Assembly: GCA_902593845.1 (NCBI GenBank) | Contig: CACJJV010000001.1 | Location: 62,001 to 126,000, forward strand | Direction: 5' to 3' | Length of the DNA stretch: 64,000 bases | Origin: an uncultured Pelagibacteraceae bacterium | Lineage (GTDB): Bacteria; Pseudomonadota; Alphaproteobacteria; Pelagibacterales; Pelagibacteraceae | Part shown: one piece after another, positions 23,467 through 32,847 of the stretch | Layout: every line of letters begins with the position of its first letter | Numbering within the stretch: the stretch's first letter is position 1 | Notes under the pieces: model-generated | The model's input: only the letters and a program-made list of their open reading frames with translations | What the model was told of the DNA's origin: nothing | Database searches by the model: none | Position numbers and translations under genes: made by a program

Positions 23467-24357
23467 TTAGCTTTTATTTTTATGATAGATACTGTCGCCA
23501 ATTTTATCTTTATCTCTAGGCACAAAAATTCCATCAATATTATCTTTTGGAGTTTGTGGAGATATAAAAACATTATTTTCTTTAAGTTTTTGAAAGAAAA
23601 TATCCTTTTTTTTTGACACTTTATAATTTTCAGATCTCCCACGATAGTTCATTTCATAATTTAAAAAAGTTTTTGAATGCATACTATCATCACCATACCT
23701 TGCAATTATAAGTGATCTAAAGCTATCTTTCATATCTTTTTGAACTGCTCTTCCGTGGTAAAGGTTGGCATAAAAAACTATTAAATCACCACTCTCATAT
23801 TTTAAATTCGTACCTATTATTTTTCTAATAAATTCCCTAAAGAAAGTTAAACTTCTAAATTTTCTGAGTCTCAAATGTATAGTTCTTAAAACATTTGAAA
23901 TACTAAATCTATAATTTCCAAAATGACTTTTTTTAATTACATTTAAAGTTGAGTCAGTATTTGTTAGATAAACTGTTGAAGATACAACATTATATTTTTC
24001 TTTTGTGTCCCAGTCTGGGCCATAACCAGTTCTACGGCAAGGGTTATCCCTATGCCACGAATGAAGTTCTTTTTTTAAGTCAATAGAGTCTGATAACATA
24101 TTTGATGAATGCAAATAGTTTATTTTCTTGCCAATTAACAGTCTAATTAGATCTAACATTTTTTTGTGACAAATAAATTCCCAAAAATCTTCGATATCAA
24201 AATATCTATCGACATTTTCACTCTCAATGATTAATTTTTTCTTTTCTATAGCCTGTAGAAAAGTGTCAACTTCTTGTTTATTAAAAAAATTTTTAAGGTG
24301 AATATAACCATCTTTTTTAAAATTATTTATTTTTTCTTCACTGATAATTTCAGACAT
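23467..24357 (-). CDS. phytanoyl-CoA dioxygenase (PhyH) family Fe(II)/2OG oxygenase; start placed at MSEIISEEK
   Basis: KNFFNKQEVDTFLQAIE, metal motif LHSWHRD, distal DLIVFYANLYHGRAVQ...RSLIIARY. Confidence 0.8.
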   Translation of the reverse strand: MSEIISEEKINNFKKDGYIHLKNFFNKQEVDTFLQAIEKKKLIIESENVDRYFDIEDFWEFICHKKMLDLIRLLIGKKINYLHSSNMLSDSIDLKKELHSWHRDNPCRRTGYGPDWDTKEKYNVVSSTVYLTNTDSTLNVIKKSHFGNYRFSISNVLRTIHLRLRKFRSLTFFREFIRKIIGTNLKYESGDLIVFYANLYHGRAVQKDMKDSFRSLIIARYGDDSMHSKTFLNYEMNYRGRSENYKVSKKKDIFFQKLKENNVFISPQTPKDNIDGIFVPRDKDKIGDSIYHKNKS

Positions 24358-24403
24358 ATAATTAATATAATAAATATATTTAATTATGCAATGTTGCAAA
24401 AAA

Positions 24404-24493
24404 TGGCGGAGAGAGAGGGATTCGAACCCTCGAAACGGCTTCCCGTTTACACGCTTTCCAAGCGTGCGCCTTCAACCACTCGGCCACCTCTCC
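24404..24493 (-). tRNA. tRNA-Ser(GGA), CCA encoded
   Basis: Reverse complement GGAGAGGTGGCCGAGTGGTTGAAGGCGCACGCTTGGAAAGCGTG...GGTTCGAATCCCTCTCTCTCCGCCA; anticodon GGA, long variable arm. Confidence 0.96.
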
Positions 24494-24521
24494 AGTCAAT
24501 ATAAATTAAAGAAAATTTGTA

Positions 24522-25319
24522 TCACTTCAACTCAAAAAAATTCCAATACCACTCCAAATATTTTGTATGTTTTTTAAACCAAAAAGATAAATATCTTTCT
24601 GCAAGATATGCATATAAACGTTGCTGGTCATAACCTTTCAATTTTTTAAAACCAAACTCTTTTTCACATTTAAAAAGCCACTTAAAAAGACTTCTAAACC
24701 ATTTATTCATTATCTTTTTTTTTGTAATAAACATAATATGTGGATTAAAACTATAATTTTCATTTACATACCTTTCAAAATCATTTTTATCTTTTTTTTC
24801 AAGATAACTTATAGCTTTATCTAATACTCCATATCCATGATGCATATCAAAATGAAGTTTAATATTTTGTTTTTTTTGGTTAAAAAAAATTGTTGGATCT
24901 TTAATTATATTTTTAAATCCTCTTTTTATTAATTTCATTTTTTTTGGGTTGTCTAATCTGATTGGCTTACAAATTATACTTTCATAATTCTTCCAACTTT
25001 TATGTGGGGTCTTTAAAATATTTTTTTTTAAATCACCCAGGCTTTTTATTTCAGTATCAGATTTCAGCCAAAATCTTCTTTTCTGACAAAAACCAATCCA
25101 AATATTATTATCGAATTTTTCTAATTGATTTTTCCAAAACCAATAATGAAAAGTTAATTCAGAATAATGCTTCTCTTTTTTTTGAATATTCTTACCTTTC
25201 AAACAGGTTATATAATCTCTTTTAAATTTTTTTTTTCCAACACCTGCTAATGAAAGATTTAATTTTTCTAGATATTTAATCTCTTTATTTGTAACACAAA
25301 AAATTCTTAATTTTTCCAT
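24522..25319 (-). CDS. DUF4422-like capsular polysaccharide glycosyltransferase-type protein
   Basis: FCVTNKEIKYL, HYSELTFHYWFWKNQLEKFDNNIWIGFCQKRRFW resembles the ALYWAWKN...IGLCHYRRYF pattern of this family. Confidence 0.6.
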   Translation of the reverse strand: MEKLRIFCVTNKEIKYLEKLNLSLAGVGKKKFKRDYITCLKGKNIQKKEKHYSELTFHYWFWKNQLEKFDNNIWIGFCQKRRFWLKSDTEIKSLGDLKKNILKTPHKSWKNYESIICKPIRLDNPKKMKLIKRGFKNIIKDPTIFFNQKKQNIKLHFDMHHGYGVLDKAISYLEKKDKNDFERYVNENYSFNPHIMFITKKKIMNKWFRSLFKWLFKCEKEFGFKKLKGYDQQRLYAYLAERYLSFWFKKHTKYLEWYWNFFELK

Positions 25320-25330
25320 TTAAATTTTAA

Positions 25331-26056
25331 TTAATTAATAATTTTCTTTTTTAAGAATTTTTTCAAATTTATAATATTCAAAGAAGAGTCAAATGGAATA
25401 TTATGATTCGAATTTTTTTTCAGATAGTCTTTCTTAACTTTTTTATTACTATTTTTTGCAAAATCATAAATATATTGTTTTTTACCACCAATGTTTAATA
25501 CTCCTCTTTTATTTAATAATCTAAACAAATATCCTCTTACATCTTCATGATAAATAAAACTGCTCTTTACATTAGCAAATGCTTTTTTATGAATGAAAGG
25601 CTTTTCGGTCATCGAAACTCTTAATATTAAAGAATTTTTATAGAGTTGCACAGACGACTCACCACCTAATTTTGACCATGCATAATTATTGACTGGTAAT
25701 AATGGGTCAGTTTCTTTATAATTACCTTTTGTACCTGGGTAAACATAATTTGTAGAAAAATAAATTAATTTTATTCCTAATTTTGAGCATACTTTTGTTA
25801 CATTAGCTGTTCCAATAATATTTAAATCGATACTTTTAATAATATTTTTTTCGTGAATTTTCATTGGTCGAGATAACCCTGCCAAATGAATTAAAATATT
25901 AGGTTTATTCTTTTTTAAGTATTTCTCTACACTCCTGAAATTTAAAATATCTAATTCTTTTTTTGTAGGAAATAAAATTTTGTGATTAGTCTTAAAATTT
26001 TTTAAACATTGACCAAATCTGCCAGAGCCACCTGTTACTACAATTTTTTTTTTCAT
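25331..26056 (-). CDS. NAD-dependent sugar epimerase/reductase (RmlD-like SDR)
   Basis: VVTGGSGRFGQCL, YFSTNYVYPG, YAWSKLGGE. Confidence 0.85.
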   Translation of the reverse strand: MKKKIVVTGGSGRFGQCLKNFKTNHKILFPTKKELDILNFRSVEKYLKKNKPNILIHLAGLSRPMKIHEKNIIKSIDLNIIGTANVTKVCSKLGIKLIYFSTNYVYPGTKGNYKETDPLLPVNNYAWSKLGGESSVQLYKNSLILRVSMTEKPFIHKKAFANVKSSFIYHEDVRGYLFRLLNKRGVLNIGGKKQYIYDFAKNSNKKVKKDYLKKNSNHNIPFDSSLNIINLKKFLKKKIIN

Positions 26057-26904
26057 TTCTTTTTAATTATTGCTATCTCGTTATGATTTCCTTTTAAAAT
26101 AAAAATCTTATCAAAATTTTTTAAAAAATAATCCTTTTGATCCTTTGATATAAGAGGATTTTCAAAATTTTCACCAGATTTAATTGACAATAAAATATCT
26201 CTTAAAGTCGGTTTTTCATTATTCAAATTCATATCAGCTCTTGTATCTGGGAAATCTAATTCTTCTGTTATAAAAATCCCTCCAGAACTTAATATTGGGA
26301 ATAACATAAATAAACTAATAATTTGGTCTTTATAAGCATGACATGCATCCTCAATTATTATTTCAAATTTTTTGTCCTTTTTTAGAATATTTTCAGAAAT
26401 AGATATTTCTGAAGAGGAGTCTACGTAAAAATTATTTATCCTATCAGATGTATAGCTAAATAAATCAGGAAAAATATCTGCTGAATATATTTTGGCATTC
26501 TTGAAATAAAAATATAATGCAGCAGCCGCATTACCATAAAAAGACCCAATTTCTAAAATATTTAATTCTTTGTTTTTTTTTTCAAAAAAATATTCATCGT
26601 AAAATTTTGCATAATTATGGCCTTGTATTTTTAATTTAGAGTCTCGCTTTATTGGTTGATTATATTGATTAATGAACTTTTCACCTTTATCACTTTCAAA
26701 AAATTCAAACAAAAAATTCAAATTTTTTTCAAATAAAAATTTTTTATCTTGTGAATAATTATCTAGGTTAATTTTTTTTTTTACATAAGGCAGATTCAAA
26801 AAGTATTTAATTGGGATTACAAAAAGAAGGTAGATCTTTAGTAATAAATTTGCTTTTATGATCCTGTGTTTGTAGTATATTTTGTAAAAAGTTTGAAGTT
26901 TCAT
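26053..26904 (-). CDS. class I SAM-dependent methyltransferase-like protein
   Basis: NILEIGSFYGNAAAALYFYFKNAKIYSADIFPD, FEIIIEDACHAYKDQIISLFMLFPILSSGGIFITEEL. Confidence 0.78.
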   Translation of the reverse strand: MKLQTFYKIYYKHRIIKANLLLKIYLLFVIPIKYFLNLPYVKKKINLDNYSQDKKFLFEKNLNFLFEFFESDKGEKFINQYNQPIKRDSKLKIQGHNYAKFYDEYFFEKKNKELNILEIGSFYGNAAAALYFYFKNAKIYSADIFPDLFSYTSDRINNFYVDSSSEISISENILKKDKKFEIIIEDACHAYKDQIISLFMLFPILSSGGIFITEELDFPDTRADMNLNNEKPTLRDILLSIKSGENFENPLISKDQKDYFLKNFDKIFILKGNHNEIAIIKKK

Positions 26905-26908
26905 GATT

Positions 26909-28021
26909 TTAAATATCTTTTAATTGATCATTTAATACTTTTAAATCTACAAATAAATCACCATTTATATTTTTTTCGCTGAAATACGGAGTAGATAATA
27001 AGCTATAATTTAAGTTATTTATTTCAGATATTCTTTCATACACTTTATTTTGAAATCCGTATCCTGGTTCAGAAGATCTTATCTCAATAACTTTTGTTTT
27101 TTCTTTTGAGAAACATAAATTAGTAAGTCCAGCTCCATGAGCTCCTACTACAATTTTTGCATTACTAAAAACAAATATCTGCTCATCAAAACTCAAATTT
27201 TCAAGTTTAACAATATCAAAATTTTTTTCTTTCAAGAGATTTTGAGTTTCTTCTAAATTAATTATTTGAGAGTGCTTAAAATTAGATAAAGATCTATCGA
27301 TGAATATATTATTTTTAATTTCTATTTTTTTTGATTTTTCTAAAAAACTACCTCTTAGCCATTTTATTATCCAATCAGGTACATACTTTGCTTGATCTAA
27401 AATAAAACCTTTAAAATAACTTGGATGCTGCGTAGCAATTAGTTGATCACACTCTATATGACGATAATAATTAGAATCAATTATCTTTAAATTCTGAAGA
27501 CCTAAAAGTTCCAATGTTTTTTTTTGAAAGGAGTTAAGTTTATTTAAATATAAGTAATCTAAATCATCATATTTAAAAACTTCATTATATAACTTAAGTT
27601 TTGGCAACATATCTAATAGCCAATGAGAAAAATTATAGTGCCCACTTGCGCCCTGAGCTAAATTTAAGACTCTACCTTTAAATTTTTTTTTTATTCTTGG
27701 TGTACCAATATCTAAACATATATTGTTTTTAGCAGTTTTAAGTTCACCTTTAATTTGTTGATATGAGGGCCCATTTATAATTTTATTACTTGATAGCACT
27801 GCAACATTTTCAACATTATCATTATAAATTCTGCCATTTTGAATTTCGTAAACTTTATAATTTTCCTTAAAAAAAGAAATTATTTTGTCATTTTTAATAA
27901 TATGAGTTTTTAGATCTTGAATATTAGAATTTTCTTCAAATTTGATACTACCATAAATAAAAGTAAAAATTTTTCTTACAATTAATTTGAATAAATTTTG
28001 AAAAAATTTTTTGATTTTCAT
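26909..28021 (-). CDS. GT61 (DUF563) family glycosyltransferase
   Basis: GHYNFSHWLLDMLPKLKLY, IVVGAHGAGLTNLCFSKEKTKVIEI. Confidence 0.85.
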   Translation of the reverse strand: MKIKKFFQNLFKLIVRKIFTFIYGSIKFEENSNIQDLKTHIIKNDKIISFFKENYKVYEIQNGRIYNDNVENVAVLSSNKIINGPSYQQIKGELKTAKNNICLDIGTPRIKKKFKGRVLNLAQGASGHYNFSHWLLDMLPKLKLYNEVFKYDDLDYLYLNKLNSFQKKTLELLGLQNLKIIDSNYYRHIECDQLIATQHPSYFKGFILDQAKYVPDWIIKWLRGSFLEKSKKIEIKNNIFIDRSLSNFKHSQIINLEETQNLLKEKNFDIVKLENLSFDEQIFVFSNAKIVVGAHGAGLTNLCFSKEKTKVIEIRSSEPGYGFQNKVYERISEINNLNYSLLSTPYFSEKNINGDLFVDLKVLNDQLKDI

Positions 28022-28077
28022 AAAAGATACTTATATCTATAAAAGATTATTATTGATAATAATATCTAGGTAGATCT

Positions 28078-28857
28078 ATGAAAAATATCGCCTTTTTGGT
28101 TTCTGGAAATATAAGAATTTATGAAAAAAATTTATCATTTCTAGAAAACTTAAAAAAAGAATTTTACAATTATGAAATAATTTTTGTTTGCTCCTTTTGG
28201 CAAAATCAAAAAAATTTAGATGAATTTAATAAAAAATATAAAGTAAAATTTTTTAATCAAATTAAGGAAAAAGACTGGAGTAATGAAATTAGTAGGATAA
28301 AATATGTTACCGGTGGTGAAAATCTCTCATATAAAATTCAAAACGTTTTTCACATGTGGCATTCTATTACCGAAAATATAGAATTTTTAGAGTCAGTTGT
28401 AAAAAAAAACAATCTAAAAGTTGATTATGTTTGTCGTTTTAGGACTGATATTATGACCTTAAAAGAAATAAAACATCTTAAAAAAGATTTAGAGAAAATT
28501 GAAAATAATCAAATATTATTTTCATCTAATAGGCATTTCAGAGGTATAACAGACTTATTTTTTATTGGAAAATATGAAACTTTCTTTAAAATAAAGAATA
28601 TTCTTAACTATTTTCAAAAATTCATAAATGATGAAAGAGTTTTTGATCCGGAATACATATTCTATTCTTTTATAACTGAAAATGACATTAAGATTAAAAT
28701 CGCATATAAATTAGATATTGCTTTAATAAGGATTGAAGAAGCAAAACCAACCAAAAAAGTTTTCGTTCCATTTAAAGATAAAATAAAAATGAAAATTGCA
28801 AAAAGAAAAATTAAGATAAATAAACTTCTGAGTAAATTCAGATATATCTTTGATTAA
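28078..28857 (+). CDS. WavE-like glycosyltransferase-type hypothetical protein
   Basis: NIAFLVSGNIRIYEKNLSFL...SFW...DYVCRFRTDI...FSSNRHFRGITDLFFIGKYE resembles WavE-style proteins; sole + strand gene in the island. Confidence 0.5.
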   Translation: MKNIAFLVSGNIRIYEKNLSFLENLKKEFYNYEIIFVCSFWQNQKNLDEFNKKYKVKFFNQIKEKDWSNEISRIKYVTGGENLSYKIQNVFHMWHSITENIEFLESVVKKNNLKVDYVCRFRTDIMTLKEIKHLKKDLEKIENNQILFSSNRHFRGITDLFFIGKYETFFKIKNILNYFQKFINDERVFDPEYIFYSFITENDIKIKIAYKLDIALIRIEEAKPTKKVFVPFKDKIKMKIAKRKIKINKLLSKFRYIFD

Positions 28858-28864
28858 AACTTAA

Positions 28865-29602
28865 TTATTTCTTTTTTAAAAAAGCAGAAATTTTTTTACT
28901 ATTTTCACCCAATTCTTCTGGTGTATTTATTGAGAAAATTTCAACAATCGGATAATGAAGTATTTTTTTATTATCAAGCAAATATTCATTATAAACTTGG
29001 CTTATATAGAATTCATTATTTATTCTAATATTCTTTTCAATCATTTTATTTGTATAAAATTCAAATTCTGAAGTTTTCTTAAAATAGTAACATCCAGTAT
29101 TTCCAAATGAACTCACAACCTCCTTTTCCTTTGTTCTAGTTACGCTTGACATATCATCCTTTAATTCGACAAATGAAAAACCAGGATTTATTGTTGGGAC
29201 AGTAACTAAAACTCCATCATTTTCTCTTCTTGATATAAATTCAAGAAAGTTTTCTTTCGACCAATTCATTATTTGATCACAATCCTTTACAATCAGTGGT
29301 AAATTTTTGTTTATTGTTTCAAAACCTAGCAATACTGTACATGCTGCACCTTCGGTAATTTTATTAACAGTTATAATCTTATATTTAATTTTTTTTTTTT
29401 TAAAGATTGAGTTAAAATCATTTGAATTTAAGTGATCTTCTCTTATCAAGAAATAAAAGAAAACATCCCCAAGATTAACGCTGTCAATTACATGAGAAAT
29501 AAAAGGTTCAGAATTTATCTCTATTAATGGCTTTGGTGTCTCTATACCTTTATCTAAAAATCTTTTTCCTCTTCCGGCCATTGGTATTACAACATTAATC
29601 AT
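28865..29602 (-). CDS. sugar-phosphate nucleotidyltransferase-like protein with intact GxGxR...PK motif
   Basis: NVVIPMAGRGKRFLDKGIETPKPLIEINSEPFISHVID, EGAACTVLLGFE, DCDQIM. Confidence 0.82.
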   Translation of the reverse strand: MINVVIPMAGRGKRFLDKGIETPKPLIEINSEPFISHVIDSVNLGDVFFYFLIREDHLNSNDFNSIFKKKKIKYKIITVNKITEGAACTVLLGFETINKNLPLIVKDCDQIMNWSKENFLEFISRRENDGVLVTVPTINPGFSFVELKDDMSSVTRTKEKEVVSSFGNTGCYYFKKTSEFEFYTNKMIEKNIRINNEFYISQVYNEYLLDNKKILHYPIVEIFSINTPEELGENSKKISAFLKKK

Positions 29603-30854
29603 CTATAAATCCCCATTTTTCTATAGCCTCATTATATTCATTCAAATCTGACTTATTTGGAGATTTTTGAAATAGTAAATCAAAAGCTTGCCTCATTGCT
29701 TTTGCTCCAGATACAGTACCGCTTGGATGACCATGCATAGAACCTCCTAAGCTCATCATAATATCTATTCCGAAATTCTTTACGGTTGTTTGGACTAACC
29801 CTGGATGACTTCCGCAAGAAAAGGAGGGAACTGTTTTTTTAAAACCAAGATCATTTTTTGAAGTTAATATTGACAACCAATTAGTCAAATCCTCTTTAGT
29901 ATCGGATAAATATCCTCCCCACATTCCAGCATGAATAAAATCAGCTCCTGAGATTCTGGCTAATTTTAGAAGTACATTCCACGATATTGAATAAACATTA
30001 TTCTTATCAGTTATAACTCTATCTCCACTCTTCTGATAAAACATAGCTATATCAAAATCAAAGCTTCTGAGATATTTGTAAGTTTGTAAACCTGTCCAAA
30101 TATTAAGATGATATGCTTTCATTTTATTTTTTACTAAAAATTCAATTCTTTTAATTAAATAAGGTAAATCTGAATTTACACATGGGGCATAAAACACCTC
30201 TTTATTCAATTTTGAGGCTTCATTTTGCACAACATCATTAACTATTTTTACTCTTTCCTCAAAAGGACAACAACTTGGGTTACCTAAAATCTCATCTTCT
30301 TTAATAAAATCTACCCCTCCTCTAACCATTTTAATACACACATCTTTTAAAGTTTTTATATCTAAACCCGTTTTAGGTTTTACGATACCACCTAAAAGAG
30401 GTCTTTTAACTGAGTTTGTTCTTTTTCTTATTTCATCTAACCCTATTTTTGGTCCTTTAAAATTTTTTAAAAAAATATTTGGAAATTCAACATCTAAAAG
30501 TCTGCAACCTAAAATTTCCTCAATATCCATTTGTCCACCCATAAATGTACAAATTAATTGTGTTATTCCATCTTGTTCTAAATCAAAGTTTTTAATTGGA
30601 AAAGCAATCCTAACTGTTGCCTCTTTCTTATTTTTTAAATTATCTGGATGATCTAAAATTATCGATAAATGATTTTCTAATAATTCAGCGGTTTCATTAT
30701 CAAGTCTAACATCTGGATTTCCTATTGATTGGCCAATCGCAACACCCTTGGCAGCTTTAAGCATGTTATTACTTTTGATTAAATACTTCGCAATAAAATA
30801 TTTATCTTTATTAACTGTTGAATTAAAGAGGAAATTATCAAATTCTTTTTTCAT
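29595..30854 (-). CDS. RuBisCO-like protein (type IV-like; RuBisCO large-subunit fold)
   Basis: LLGGIVKPKTGLD, GGVDFIKEDEILGNPSCCPFEERVK, GADFIHAGMWGGYLSD, PSFSCGSHPGL, DIMMSLGGSMHGHPSGTVSGAKAMRQAFD align to RuBisCO catalytic blocks. Confidence 0.93.
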   Translation of the reverse strand: MKKEFDNFLFNSTVNKDKYFIAKYLIKSNNMLKAAKGVAIGQSIGNPDVRLDNETAELLENHLSIILDHPDNLKNKKEATVRIAFPIKNFDLEQDGITQLICTFMGGQMDIEEILGCRLLDVEFPNIFLKNFKGPKIGLDEIRKRTNSVKRPLLGGIVKPKTGLDIKTLKDVCIKMVRGGVDFIKEDEILGNPSCCPFEERVKIVNDVVQNEASKLNKEVFYAPCVNSDLPYLIKRIEFLVKNKMKAYHLNIWTGLQTYKYLRSFDFDIAMFYQKSGDRVITDKNNVYSISWNVLLKLARISGADFIHAGMWGGYLSDTKEDLTNWLSILTSKNDLGFKKTVPSFSCGSHPGLVQTTVKNFGIDIMMSLGGSMHGHPSGTVSGAKAMRQAFDLLFQKSPNKSDLNEYNEAIEKWGFIDD

Positions 30855-31591
30855 TTATATTCTACCAATCTACAGTTTTCGTAAAATGACTCTATGCTTT
30901 TTTTTGTACCAAGCGATGCTATAAAATTACAGTCATACGATTTAATCTTATATCTTTCTTTAATCATCTCGTTATAAACCAGGCTTACCATATATTTACC
31001 ATTTTTAGACACTTTTTTTTTATTTATCATTTGCTCTGCAAAATAGAAAAATAAATTAGCTTCTTTAAAATAACTTACACATCCTGTTGAATTCGTTGAT
31101 ATTGGTTTAGGGTCCTTTTCAGAAATTAATCTTATATTTTTTTTTTTATCAATTAATGAATAACCTCTATCATGATATAAAGATTGAAATGTTGGAACGC
31201 AACCGTCAATATTACTTTTTAAACAAAATTTTAGGTATTGTTTAAAATCAATGTATTGATCTAACAAATCAATAAAAAGGGGTTGGTTTAAATTAACCAT
31301 GTGTTTTACTTTTAAAATACTTTGAGGAGCACCATCGGTATAACCATCCAATAAAAAATAATTTATTTTTTTTCTAAGTAATTTTGAAATTTTTTTAACT
31401 AAATTATATTTTTTTTCATGTTTTTTTTGAAAAATAAAAATTCCATCACCTAATTTATAAGGTCTTGAAATTTGAACCCACTCAATAAGTTTTTTGTCTT
31501 GAATATTAATTAAAAGCTTATGATTTTTAAATTTTTCAAAATTGATGTTTGGCCCTGCCACAGGGATAATAAGTTGATAATTTTTTTTCAT
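30851..31591 (-). CDS. degenerate nucleotidyltransferase paralog (lacks GxGxR...PK signature)
   Basis: LIIPVAGPNINFEKFKNHKLLINI, TDGAPQSILKVKHM, STGCVSYFKEANLFFYFAEQMI, MVSLVYNEMI align to the adjacent 28865..29602 protein; ATGA overlap with the RLP gene. Confidence 0.65.
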   Translation of the reverse strand: MKKNYQLIIPVAGPNINFEKFKNHKLLINIQDKKLIEWVQISRPYKLGDGIFIFQKKHEKKYNLVKKISKLLRKKINYFLLDGYTDGAPQSILKVKHMVNLNQPLFIDLLDQYIDFKQYLKFCLKSNIDGCVPTFQSLYHDRGYSLIDKKKNIRLISEKDPKPISTNSTGCVSYFKEANLFFYFAEQMINKKKVSKNGKYMVSLVYNEMIKERYKIKSYDCNFIASLGTKKSIESFYENCRLVEYK

Positions 31592-32046
31592 CTTTTTTTC
31601 AAATTCAAGATTTTTTTCTTATACTTATCAATAAAGTCAGAACATATACCTTTATAATTAAGACTGTTGTCAAACTTTTTTTGATACTCTGGTAAAACAT
31701 AAATGCTTTTTTTATAGAGTTTTTTCCCTGGAAATGTCCAAATATAACCGCTACTTGTCAAAACATAATCATCATTTTGATGCCAAAAATAATTAGCATT
31801 TATTTTTTTTAGATTTATAAGAGCTTCAAAATTTTTAGCGTGACACCAAAAATGTTTCTTTAATATAAAATTTTTTTTAACTTTATATAAAGGTTTATCA
31901 TGACCTAAATAAAAATTATCTTTGTAAAACCAAACATCTATTTCAACATCAAAACCAAGCTTAATTGCATAATTTATATAATCAATTTTATTTTCTTCAT
32001 TTTTATTTGGTCCAAAAATGTTACCTCTATGAGAAATATAAAACAT
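31588..32046 (-). CDS. short glycerophosphodiester phosphodiesterase/PI-PLC-like protein
   Basis: 152 aa; FYISHRGN, GFDVEIDVWFYKDNFYLGHDKPL gives HRG, ExD and HD residues of the GDPD family. Confidence 0.65.
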   Translation of the reverse strand: MFYISHRGNIFGPNKNEENKIDYINYAIKLGFDVEIDVWFYKDNFYLGHDKPLYKVKKNFILKKHFWCHAKNFEALINLKKINANYFWHQNDDYVLTSSGYIWTFPGKKLYKKSIYVLPEYQKKFDNSLNYKGICSDFIDKYKKKILNLKKR

Positions 32047-32049
32047 TAA

Positions 32050-32847
32050 TTACTGTATCAAAAACTTAGAAAATTTACTTTTATTTTCTATCAAATATTT
32101 TGGTAACTCTTTATCATCATCTATTTTTTTAAACTGAAAATTTCTGCCAAATATGTCTTTTTTTAGGTCAATTTTTTTTTTAATAATCTCTTCATCTGTA
32201 AACTCTGGTTTATCAAACTCCGAATGTGCAAAAGATTTCAACTTTTCACTTATCTCTTTTGGAGACATTACATTAGAAAAATGCCATCCACCATTTTCAA
32301 CTATATTCCAATTTAATTTATCTATTCTATAAAAAGGGTAGTTTTTTACTTTTTTACTTCTAAGCCATTGAGGAGATTTGAGATGTTTAAATTTACACAT
32401 TCTAGAACCATACCAGTTTTTTTCAGTCAAGTTTAATAAGTTAAATTTATAGTAAATCATTTTTTGTTTAAAAGCAGTATATTTTTTTTTATTATTTAGA
32501 ATATCATTTAAGTTTTCTAAATTGGGTAGTTCATCCACATCAGAGATTATTACATAATCATCTTTATTTATATTTGATAGAGCCTTCATAATATAGTTTC
32601 TATGAAAATTTTCTCTCTTCCAATTAGTAAGATTATTTGGGAAATTTTCTATTTGTAAATATTTGATTTTATTTTGAAAATTTTCAAATTTTTTTAAGTC
32701 AAAGTTATATTTATTCTTTTCTTTCCCAGTGTGAGAAAATTTTGCCTCAACTATTACAAAACTATCAACATATGTGTTTAGTGAGTTAAGCCTCAAGTCA
32801 AGAATAAGATCCTCATTATTATAAATAAAACAATCGATAATTTTCAT
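32050..32847 (-). CDS. GT17-like glycosyltransferase
   Basis: IDCFIYNNEDLILDLRLNSLNTYVDSFVIVEAKFSHTGKEK, WKRENFHRNYIMKALSNINKDDYVIISDVDELPN. Confidence 0.82.
   Translation of the reverse strand: MKIIDCFIYNNEDLILDLRLNSLNTYVDSFVIVEAKFSHTGKEKNKYNFDLKKFENFQNKIKYLQIENFPNNLTNWKRENFHRNYIMKALSNINKDDYVIISDVDELPNLENLNDILNNKKKYTAFKQKMIYYKFNLLNLTEKNWYGSRMCKFKHLKSPQWLRSKKVKNYPFYRIDKLNWNIVENGGWHFSNVMSPKEISEKLKSFAHSEFDKPEFTDEEIIKKKIDLKKDIFGRNFQFKKIDDDKELPKYLIENKSKFSKFLIQ

Follow-up and report, generated by a model that had tools for sequence, protein, structure and literature searches.

A clade of RuBisCO-like proteins encoded beside nucleotidyltransferases in phages and SAR11 bacteria, with a probable role in nucleotide-sugar biosynthesis

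The window, that is, the whole stretch of 64,000 nucleotides of Pelagibacteraceae DNA analyzed here, harbors between gyrB and lepA an accessory glycan island with a cassette of four genes encoding, in this order, a GDPD-like protein, a nucleotidyltransferase-like protein (NT1), a RuBisCO-like protein (RLP) and a second nucleotidyltransferase (NT2) (Table 1). A preliminary description of the locus had named nucleotidyltransferases and a GDPD-like protein among the neighbors of the RLP gene, and the two nucleotidyltransferase genes and the GDPD-like gene indeed overlap with it or with one another, by 4 bp (GDPD-like/NT1), 4 bp (NT1/RLP) and 8 bp (RLP/NT2). Besides the cassette the island codes for PhyH-like, DUF4422, RmlD-like reductase, methyltransferase-like and GT61 proteins and for one protein without assignment; its GC content is 0.249 as compared to 0.303 for gyrB and 0.324 for lepA. 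The peripheral, convergent gene belongs to a family (c4) found at most 3 kb from the RLP gene in 33 of the 105 loci surveyed below, and a protein related to this family matches DUF7796 (E 4e-7).

Table 1. Features in and around the cassette, with positions in the window
Feature	Position	Strand	Evidence
Accessory glycan island with the cassette, flanked by gyrB and lepA	23467..32847	.	ORFs, Pfam, GC
PhyH-family (phytanoyl-CoA dioxygenase) gene, gyrB end of the island	23467..24399	-	
Peripheral convergent gene, c4 family	28078..28857	+	profile E 3e-21
NT2, canonical sugar-phosphate nucleotidyltransferase, partner of the RLP	28865..29602	-	Pfam NTP_transferase E 3e-5
RLP, cassette-RLP clade	29595..30854	-	Pfam, PDB and AlphaFold matches; tree; active-site map
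NT1, divergent paralog of NT2	30851..31591	-	cassette NT profile E 1e-70
Compact GDPD-like protein, 152 amino acids	31588..32046	-	cassette profile, invariant residues

NT2 carries the signature of sugar-phosphate nucleotidyltransferases (GxGxRF...KPL, DCDQ; in the protein IPMAGRGKRF, KPL and D109), and the best PDB match of the cassette NT profile is 4evw, a nucleoside-diphosphate-sugar pyrophosphorylase (E 2e-36). NT1 fails this signature, having in the alignment IPVAGPNINF for GxGxRF, together with HKL and without the Arg; its sequence suggests an altered or non-catalytic nucleotidyltransferase fold. A divergent NT1-like copy adjoins the GDPD gene in an archaeal locus (L094), a likeness which suggests that GDPD and NT1 are a conserved pair. 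The GDPD-like protein retains H6R7, E18N19, E35/D37 and H49, all of them GDPD-type catalytic residues. By sequence its matches to GDPDs are weak, the window copy having no Pfam hit; the best Foldseek match of its model (pLDDT 97) is a GDPD (E 0.027), the TM scores to GDPDs being 0.3-0.4. The domain is far shorter than known GDPDs, and no PDB fold fits the confident model well.

The RLP, a protein of 419 amino acids, matches Pfam RuBisCO_large with E 3e-41 and RuBisCO_large_N with E 1e-5, and all of the motifs from which the preliminary description had called the open reading frame RuBisCO-like are present. An AlphaFold model calculated from a 22-member alignment (mean pLDDT 88.9, pTM 0.90) has form III RuBisCO as best PDB match (TM 0.88), with MtnW at TM 0.85 (2oek/2oem); by sequence, too, MtnW and form III are the closest among the solved structures. 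The RuBisCO_large match and the fold similarity to form III make the protein a member of the RuBisCO superfamily (an RLP, type IV in the broad sense). None of the NCBIfam models for RuBisCO and RLPs reaches its cut-off on the protein (MtnW 166 versus 514 bits, OiaX 131 versus 700), the form III model staying far under it. The identity to proteins from six other Pelagibacteraceae genomes is 78-82%, and in the source genome (1.06 Mb, 24 contigs, about 88% complete) no second RuBisCO-family gene was found.

Active-site residues were mapped on a joint family alignment, an assignment by sequence rather than from a liganded structure. Retained are K175/K177 of RuBisCO as K159/K161 (in a KPK motif), the carbamate lysine and the metal ligands K201/D203/E204 as K185/D187/E188, S379/G381 as S346/G348 and G403/G404 as G370/G371. 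H327 corresponds to the His of FIHAG, in some phage members of the clade to Gln, so that the active site is not uniform within the clade. In RuBisCO the counterparts of the kept residues function in metal binding, enolization and C1-phosphate binding, K334 and N123 belong to the CO2-dependent half of the reaction, and R295 and H327 interact with the C5 phosphate. The catalytic set K334/H294/R295/N123 of the carboxylating forms I-III is incomplete in the RLP: K334 is Tyr (Y315), as had been read from loop 6 before, and N123 is Gly (G107). The additional claim that H294 and R295 are lost holds for H294, which is Gln (Q274), while R295 is replaced by Lys (K275). Q-x-S-G is kept in all 22 sequences of the family alignment, from which it follows that the site is rewired rather than decayed. 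E60 is Gly (G41), as it is in MtnW. The carbamate lysine, the Asp/Glu ligands and KPK are invariant in the same 22 sequences and in the divergent genome members inspected.

The best reading of this pattern is that the RLP has kept the enolizing half of the RuBisCO site and lost the carboxylating half, and thus would make a sugar-phosphate isomer. Judged by its residues, the protein is probably a Mg2+/carbamyl-lysine enolase or isomerase of a ketose phosphate, the substrate presumably being a ketose monophosphate converted by enolase-type chemistry without CO2. RuBP carboxylase activity is not expected.

Phylogenetic analysis of 83 proteins placed the cassette RLPs, 40 in number, in a single group (bootstrap/SH-aLRT 100/100) apart from MtnW, OiaX, the kinase-linked RLPs and RuBisCO forms I-III; a quick tree with 89 rows gave 0.89 for the stem of the clade. 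The cassette RLP is therefore outside every characterized group with which it was compared. A position outside the MtnW- and apiose-type clades had been predicted, with the tree set beforehand as refutation test, and the prediction stands against the MtnW and OiaX clades. In the 88%-complete source genome neither mtnA, the sole methionine-salvage gene looked for, nor a four-carbon-acid kinase (PF07005) was found. A role of the RLP in methionine salvage was rejected on the basis of the tree and the failure to find mtnA in this 88%-complete genome, and one in apionate/isoapionate catabolism on the basis of the tree and the failure to find the kinase there.

The cassette was surveyed in 105 RLP loci, 80 of them viral and 24 from genomes, the window being the last. 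A nucleotidyltransferase gene lies at most 3 kb from the RLP gene in 99 of these loci and in 101 after a re-search, which recovered the genes of L091 and L101 that an ORF filter had hidden at first; the remaining four loci are all on contigs cut by ends. L101, a locus of Azospirillum oleiclasticum, carries GDPD, RLP, cupin and nucleotidyltransferase genes all together. The orientation is the same for 107 of 109 NT-RLP pairs, and none of 16 control loci with other RLPs (about 6 kb flanks) contains a nucleotidyltransferase, GDPD or cupin gene. In the reciprocal direction, a search with the cupin led to an RLP in 75 of 76 loci and a search with close nucleotidyltransferases in 38 of 41, all misses of the latter being at contig ends. 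The association expected in the preliminary description thus recurs in other genomes. The IMG/VR loci were taken as best hits by rank, many of them on related contigs; the counts therefore do not represent independent events, and the occurrence in distant cellular lineages carries more weight.

The small cupin, which has an HxH...E motif, is a usual member of the cassette, the commonest viral order being NT-cupin-RLP-GDPD. The cupin was not found in the source genome, which together with the degraded nucleotide-binding motif of NT1 indicates that the cassettes of SAR11 and of phages may not be alike. A search of viral contigs with a single GDPD protein found seven, four of them without RLP but with a nucleotidyltransferase, so the GDPD occurs also in RLP-less versions. 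The sole RLP-less cupin locus (L236, 7307-9474) has the order NT-cupin-PMM-GDPD with a phosphomannomutase-family HAD protein (PF03332) in the slot of the RLP, an enzyme swap that may reveal the step catalyzed by the RLP. In three loci the nucleotidyltransferase is fused to an N-terminal HAD_2 domain (L325, 5194-6567; L041, 3827-5212; L066, 3247-4620), and a LicD-family gene divergently adjoins RLP-NT in three Legionella species (L104-L106). The swap, the fusions and LicD agree with a pathway in which a sugar phosphate is first rearranged, then activated with a nucleotidyl group and transferred. Around the cassettes lie glycan genes (GDP-mannose dehydratase-like, FkbM, DegT, glycosyltransferases).

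Some of the phage contigs with HAD_2-NT fusions have an RLP and some do not. In the Legionella loci a second gene, without assignment and with a weak Wzy_C-like hit, lies beside LicD. In L026 (11214-13231) and its relatives the RLP gene is directly followed by genes for an APH/fructosamine-kinase-like protein and a DHQ-synthase-like sugar cyclase; the latter was set aside as a clue, being limited to one closely related phage group.

A first scan of IMG/VR found the cassette RLP on 229 viral contigs and a profile search then on at least 340; the cupin is encoded by 525 viral contigs. Among 34 RLP contigs tested, which are up to 190-216 kb long, 14 have a terminase above cut-off and 11 of the 14 also the T4-type Gp23 capsid family, which is absent from all 14 control genomes. 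It is therefore unlikely, for at least these 14 of the 34, that they are mis-binned bacterial DNA. INPHARED contains no record with a RuBisCO fold and the BFVD structure library no RuBisCO-fold match, and the viral copies thus appear to be uncatalogued there. Among the cellular carriers are SAR11, Azospirillum, Legionella, Elusimicrobia, Verrucomicrobiia, Patescibacteria and DPANN archaea; the cassette is apparently carried mostly by phages, large ones among them. In SAR11 the RLP is rare (3 of 397 genomes of the family). The cassette is found there between gyrB and lepA in the window and beside thyX and mrp/hflK in L087 and L089, and thus occupies more than one genomic site, which fits a mobile cassette. 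The flanks of L087 and L089 are a thyX side and an mrp/hflK-hflC side.

From these results we propose, as the probable reading, that the RLP is the dedicated enzyme of a portable cassette for the biosynthesis of a nucleotide-sugar (or nucleotide-sugar-alcohol), in which an isomerizing step precedes activation by the nucleotidyltransferase and use in surface or virion glycans. The RLP, with K185 carbamylated, D187/E188 as Mg2+ ligands and the lysines of KPK, would bind a ketose monophosphate, its phosphate held by S346/G348/G370/G371, and remove a proton adjacent to the carbonyl; the enediolate would be reprotonated to an isomer or epimer without CO2 being fixed. The adjacent nucleotidyltransferase would then join the phosphate of this product to an NTP, yielding a nucleotide-linked sugar. 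The cupin present in most phage versions probably contributes an isomerization or epimerization, the GDPD-like protein probably supplies a phosphodiester step, and neighboring transferases would put the activated unit on surface or virion glycans. A role of the RLP in sugar activation is well supported by context, given its position outside MtnW and OiaX and its widespread link to nucleotidyltransferases; its reaction and substrate, the individual pathway reactions and the end product are those we infer. Of the new role suggested in the preliminary description, activated-sugar metabolism is thus well supported by context, while decarboxylation and lipid head groups found no specific support; that the cassette is mostly phage-borne, usually with a cupin, apparently mobile and rare in SAR11 goes beyond that description.

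Genomic context cannot tell isomerization from epimerization, aldol or decarboxylation chemistry. The RLP could catalyze another step of an activated-sugar pathway, namely a carboxylation, decarboxylation or retro-aldol reaction whose product would be a sugar phosphate that is branched or acidic. Its metal and carbamate residues are in place for such a reaction, and OiaX, by its NCBIfam name, provides the precedent of an RLP acting as decarboxylase. We consider this unlikely, because the residues of the CO2-dependent half, K334 and N123, are Tyr and Gly and because the clade lies outside OiaX.

The finding of most copies on viral contigs, some near a DnaB-type helicase, could also mean that the phage cassette modifies nucleotides or DNA instead of glycans and that the cellular copies are phage remnants. 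This is improbable: the cellular copies have glycan genes or ordinary chromosomal genes around them, Legionella has the LicD partner, and phage copies have glycosyltransferases, FkbM and DegT nearby. Marginally less probable still is a non-catalytic role of the RLP, as scaffold or regulator of the nucleotidyltransferase: the departures at E60, N123, H294 and K334 would agree with it, but the invariance of the carbamate lysine, the Asp/Glu ligands and KPK argues for catalysis. Least probable, and strongly disfavored, is a catabolic or salvage RLP of the MtnW or apionate type that is in the glycan island by chance, since the closeness in sequence to the solved MtnW and form III structures is outweighed by the separate clade, the failure to find mtnA and the kinase in the 88%-complete genome, and the nucleotidyltransferase association across phages, bacteria and archaea.

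Going one step further than the proposed nucleotide-sugar cassette, we lean, with less assurance, to the view that an undescribed branch of the RuBisCO superfamily catalyzes a committed step of nucleotide-sugar synthesis and that phages rather than cells are its main carriers, which would use it to build an unusual sugar for the glycans of virions or host surfaces. The RLPs of known function compared here serve in the salvage of sulfur or the catabolism of sugar acids; for many RLPs no role is, to our knowledge, known. With one clade tied to one nucleotidyltransferase family the biosynthetic assignment is unusually testable, the sugar-phosphate substrate of the nucleotidyltransferase being the predicted product of the RLP. 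If the proposal is true, the enolization machinery of RuBisCO has been reused to make activated sugars, viral "rbcL" hits should be taken as evidence of CO2 fixation only with caution, and phages and SAR11 cells may exchange a sugar in surface variation. In the literature, as far as covered, we found nothing on point on RLPs with a nucleotidyltransferase, phages or SAR11, and no earlier report tying viral or ocean RuBisCO homologs to nucleotidyltransferases, which points to a RuBisCO-family sugar-activation pathway without a previous description.

The cassette RLP shares with MtnW (2,3-diketo-5-methylthiopentyl-1-phosphate enolase, a type IV RLP) the fold, the exchange of E60 for Gly, the carbamate and metal residues, the C-terminal phosphate glycines and, probably, enolase chemistry; it differs in having KPK where MtnW has KGM or KGV, in forming its own clade, in its nucleotidyltransferase, GDPD and cupin partners and in its occurrence in a genome in which mtnA was not found. 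With OiaX and the four-carbon-acid-kinase-linked RLPs of apionate/isoapionate-type catabolism it would have a phosphorylated keto-sugar substrate in common, but these proteins keep a KPS motif and HR, belong to a separate clade and often have a kinase as annotated partner, the nucleotidyltransferase cassette being present in 0 of the 16 control loci. Of RuBisCO forms I-III, form III is the best fold match and K175/K177/K201/D203/E204 are kept, whereas K334, N123, H294 and R295 are Tyr, Gly, Gln and Lys. Unplaced RuBisCO homologs are also known from the ocean GOS data, presumably those labeled "IV-GOS". Reported in 2007, these 65 homologs outside the known clades (PMC1821046) resemble the cassette RLP, by description, in being marine and metagenomic and in having altered active sites; genomic context and function are absent from the portion of the description available. 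The virus-encoded "RbcL-like" auxiliary gene of landfill viral elements (PMC12607003) is likewise, by description, a viral RuBisCO homolog outside true RbcL, but is listed there as a CO2-fixation gene, and the available part of the report describes no cassette. For the second step of the proposed pathway there is a precedent in the formation of CDP-6-fructose from fructose-6-phosphate, in which a nucleotidyltransferase acts directly on a ketose phosphate, and in the CDP-6-D-glucitol/mannitol pathways of C. jejuni (HS5.18/17) and S. pneumoniae (Mnp1/2) (PMC10918830). These pathways employ an IspD-type cytidylyltransferase (PF01128) and a reductase, with no RLP mentioned in the accessible text, but they resemble our proposal in the direct activation of a ketose phosphate by a nucleotidyltransferase, there as part of capsule synthesis (PMC10918830).
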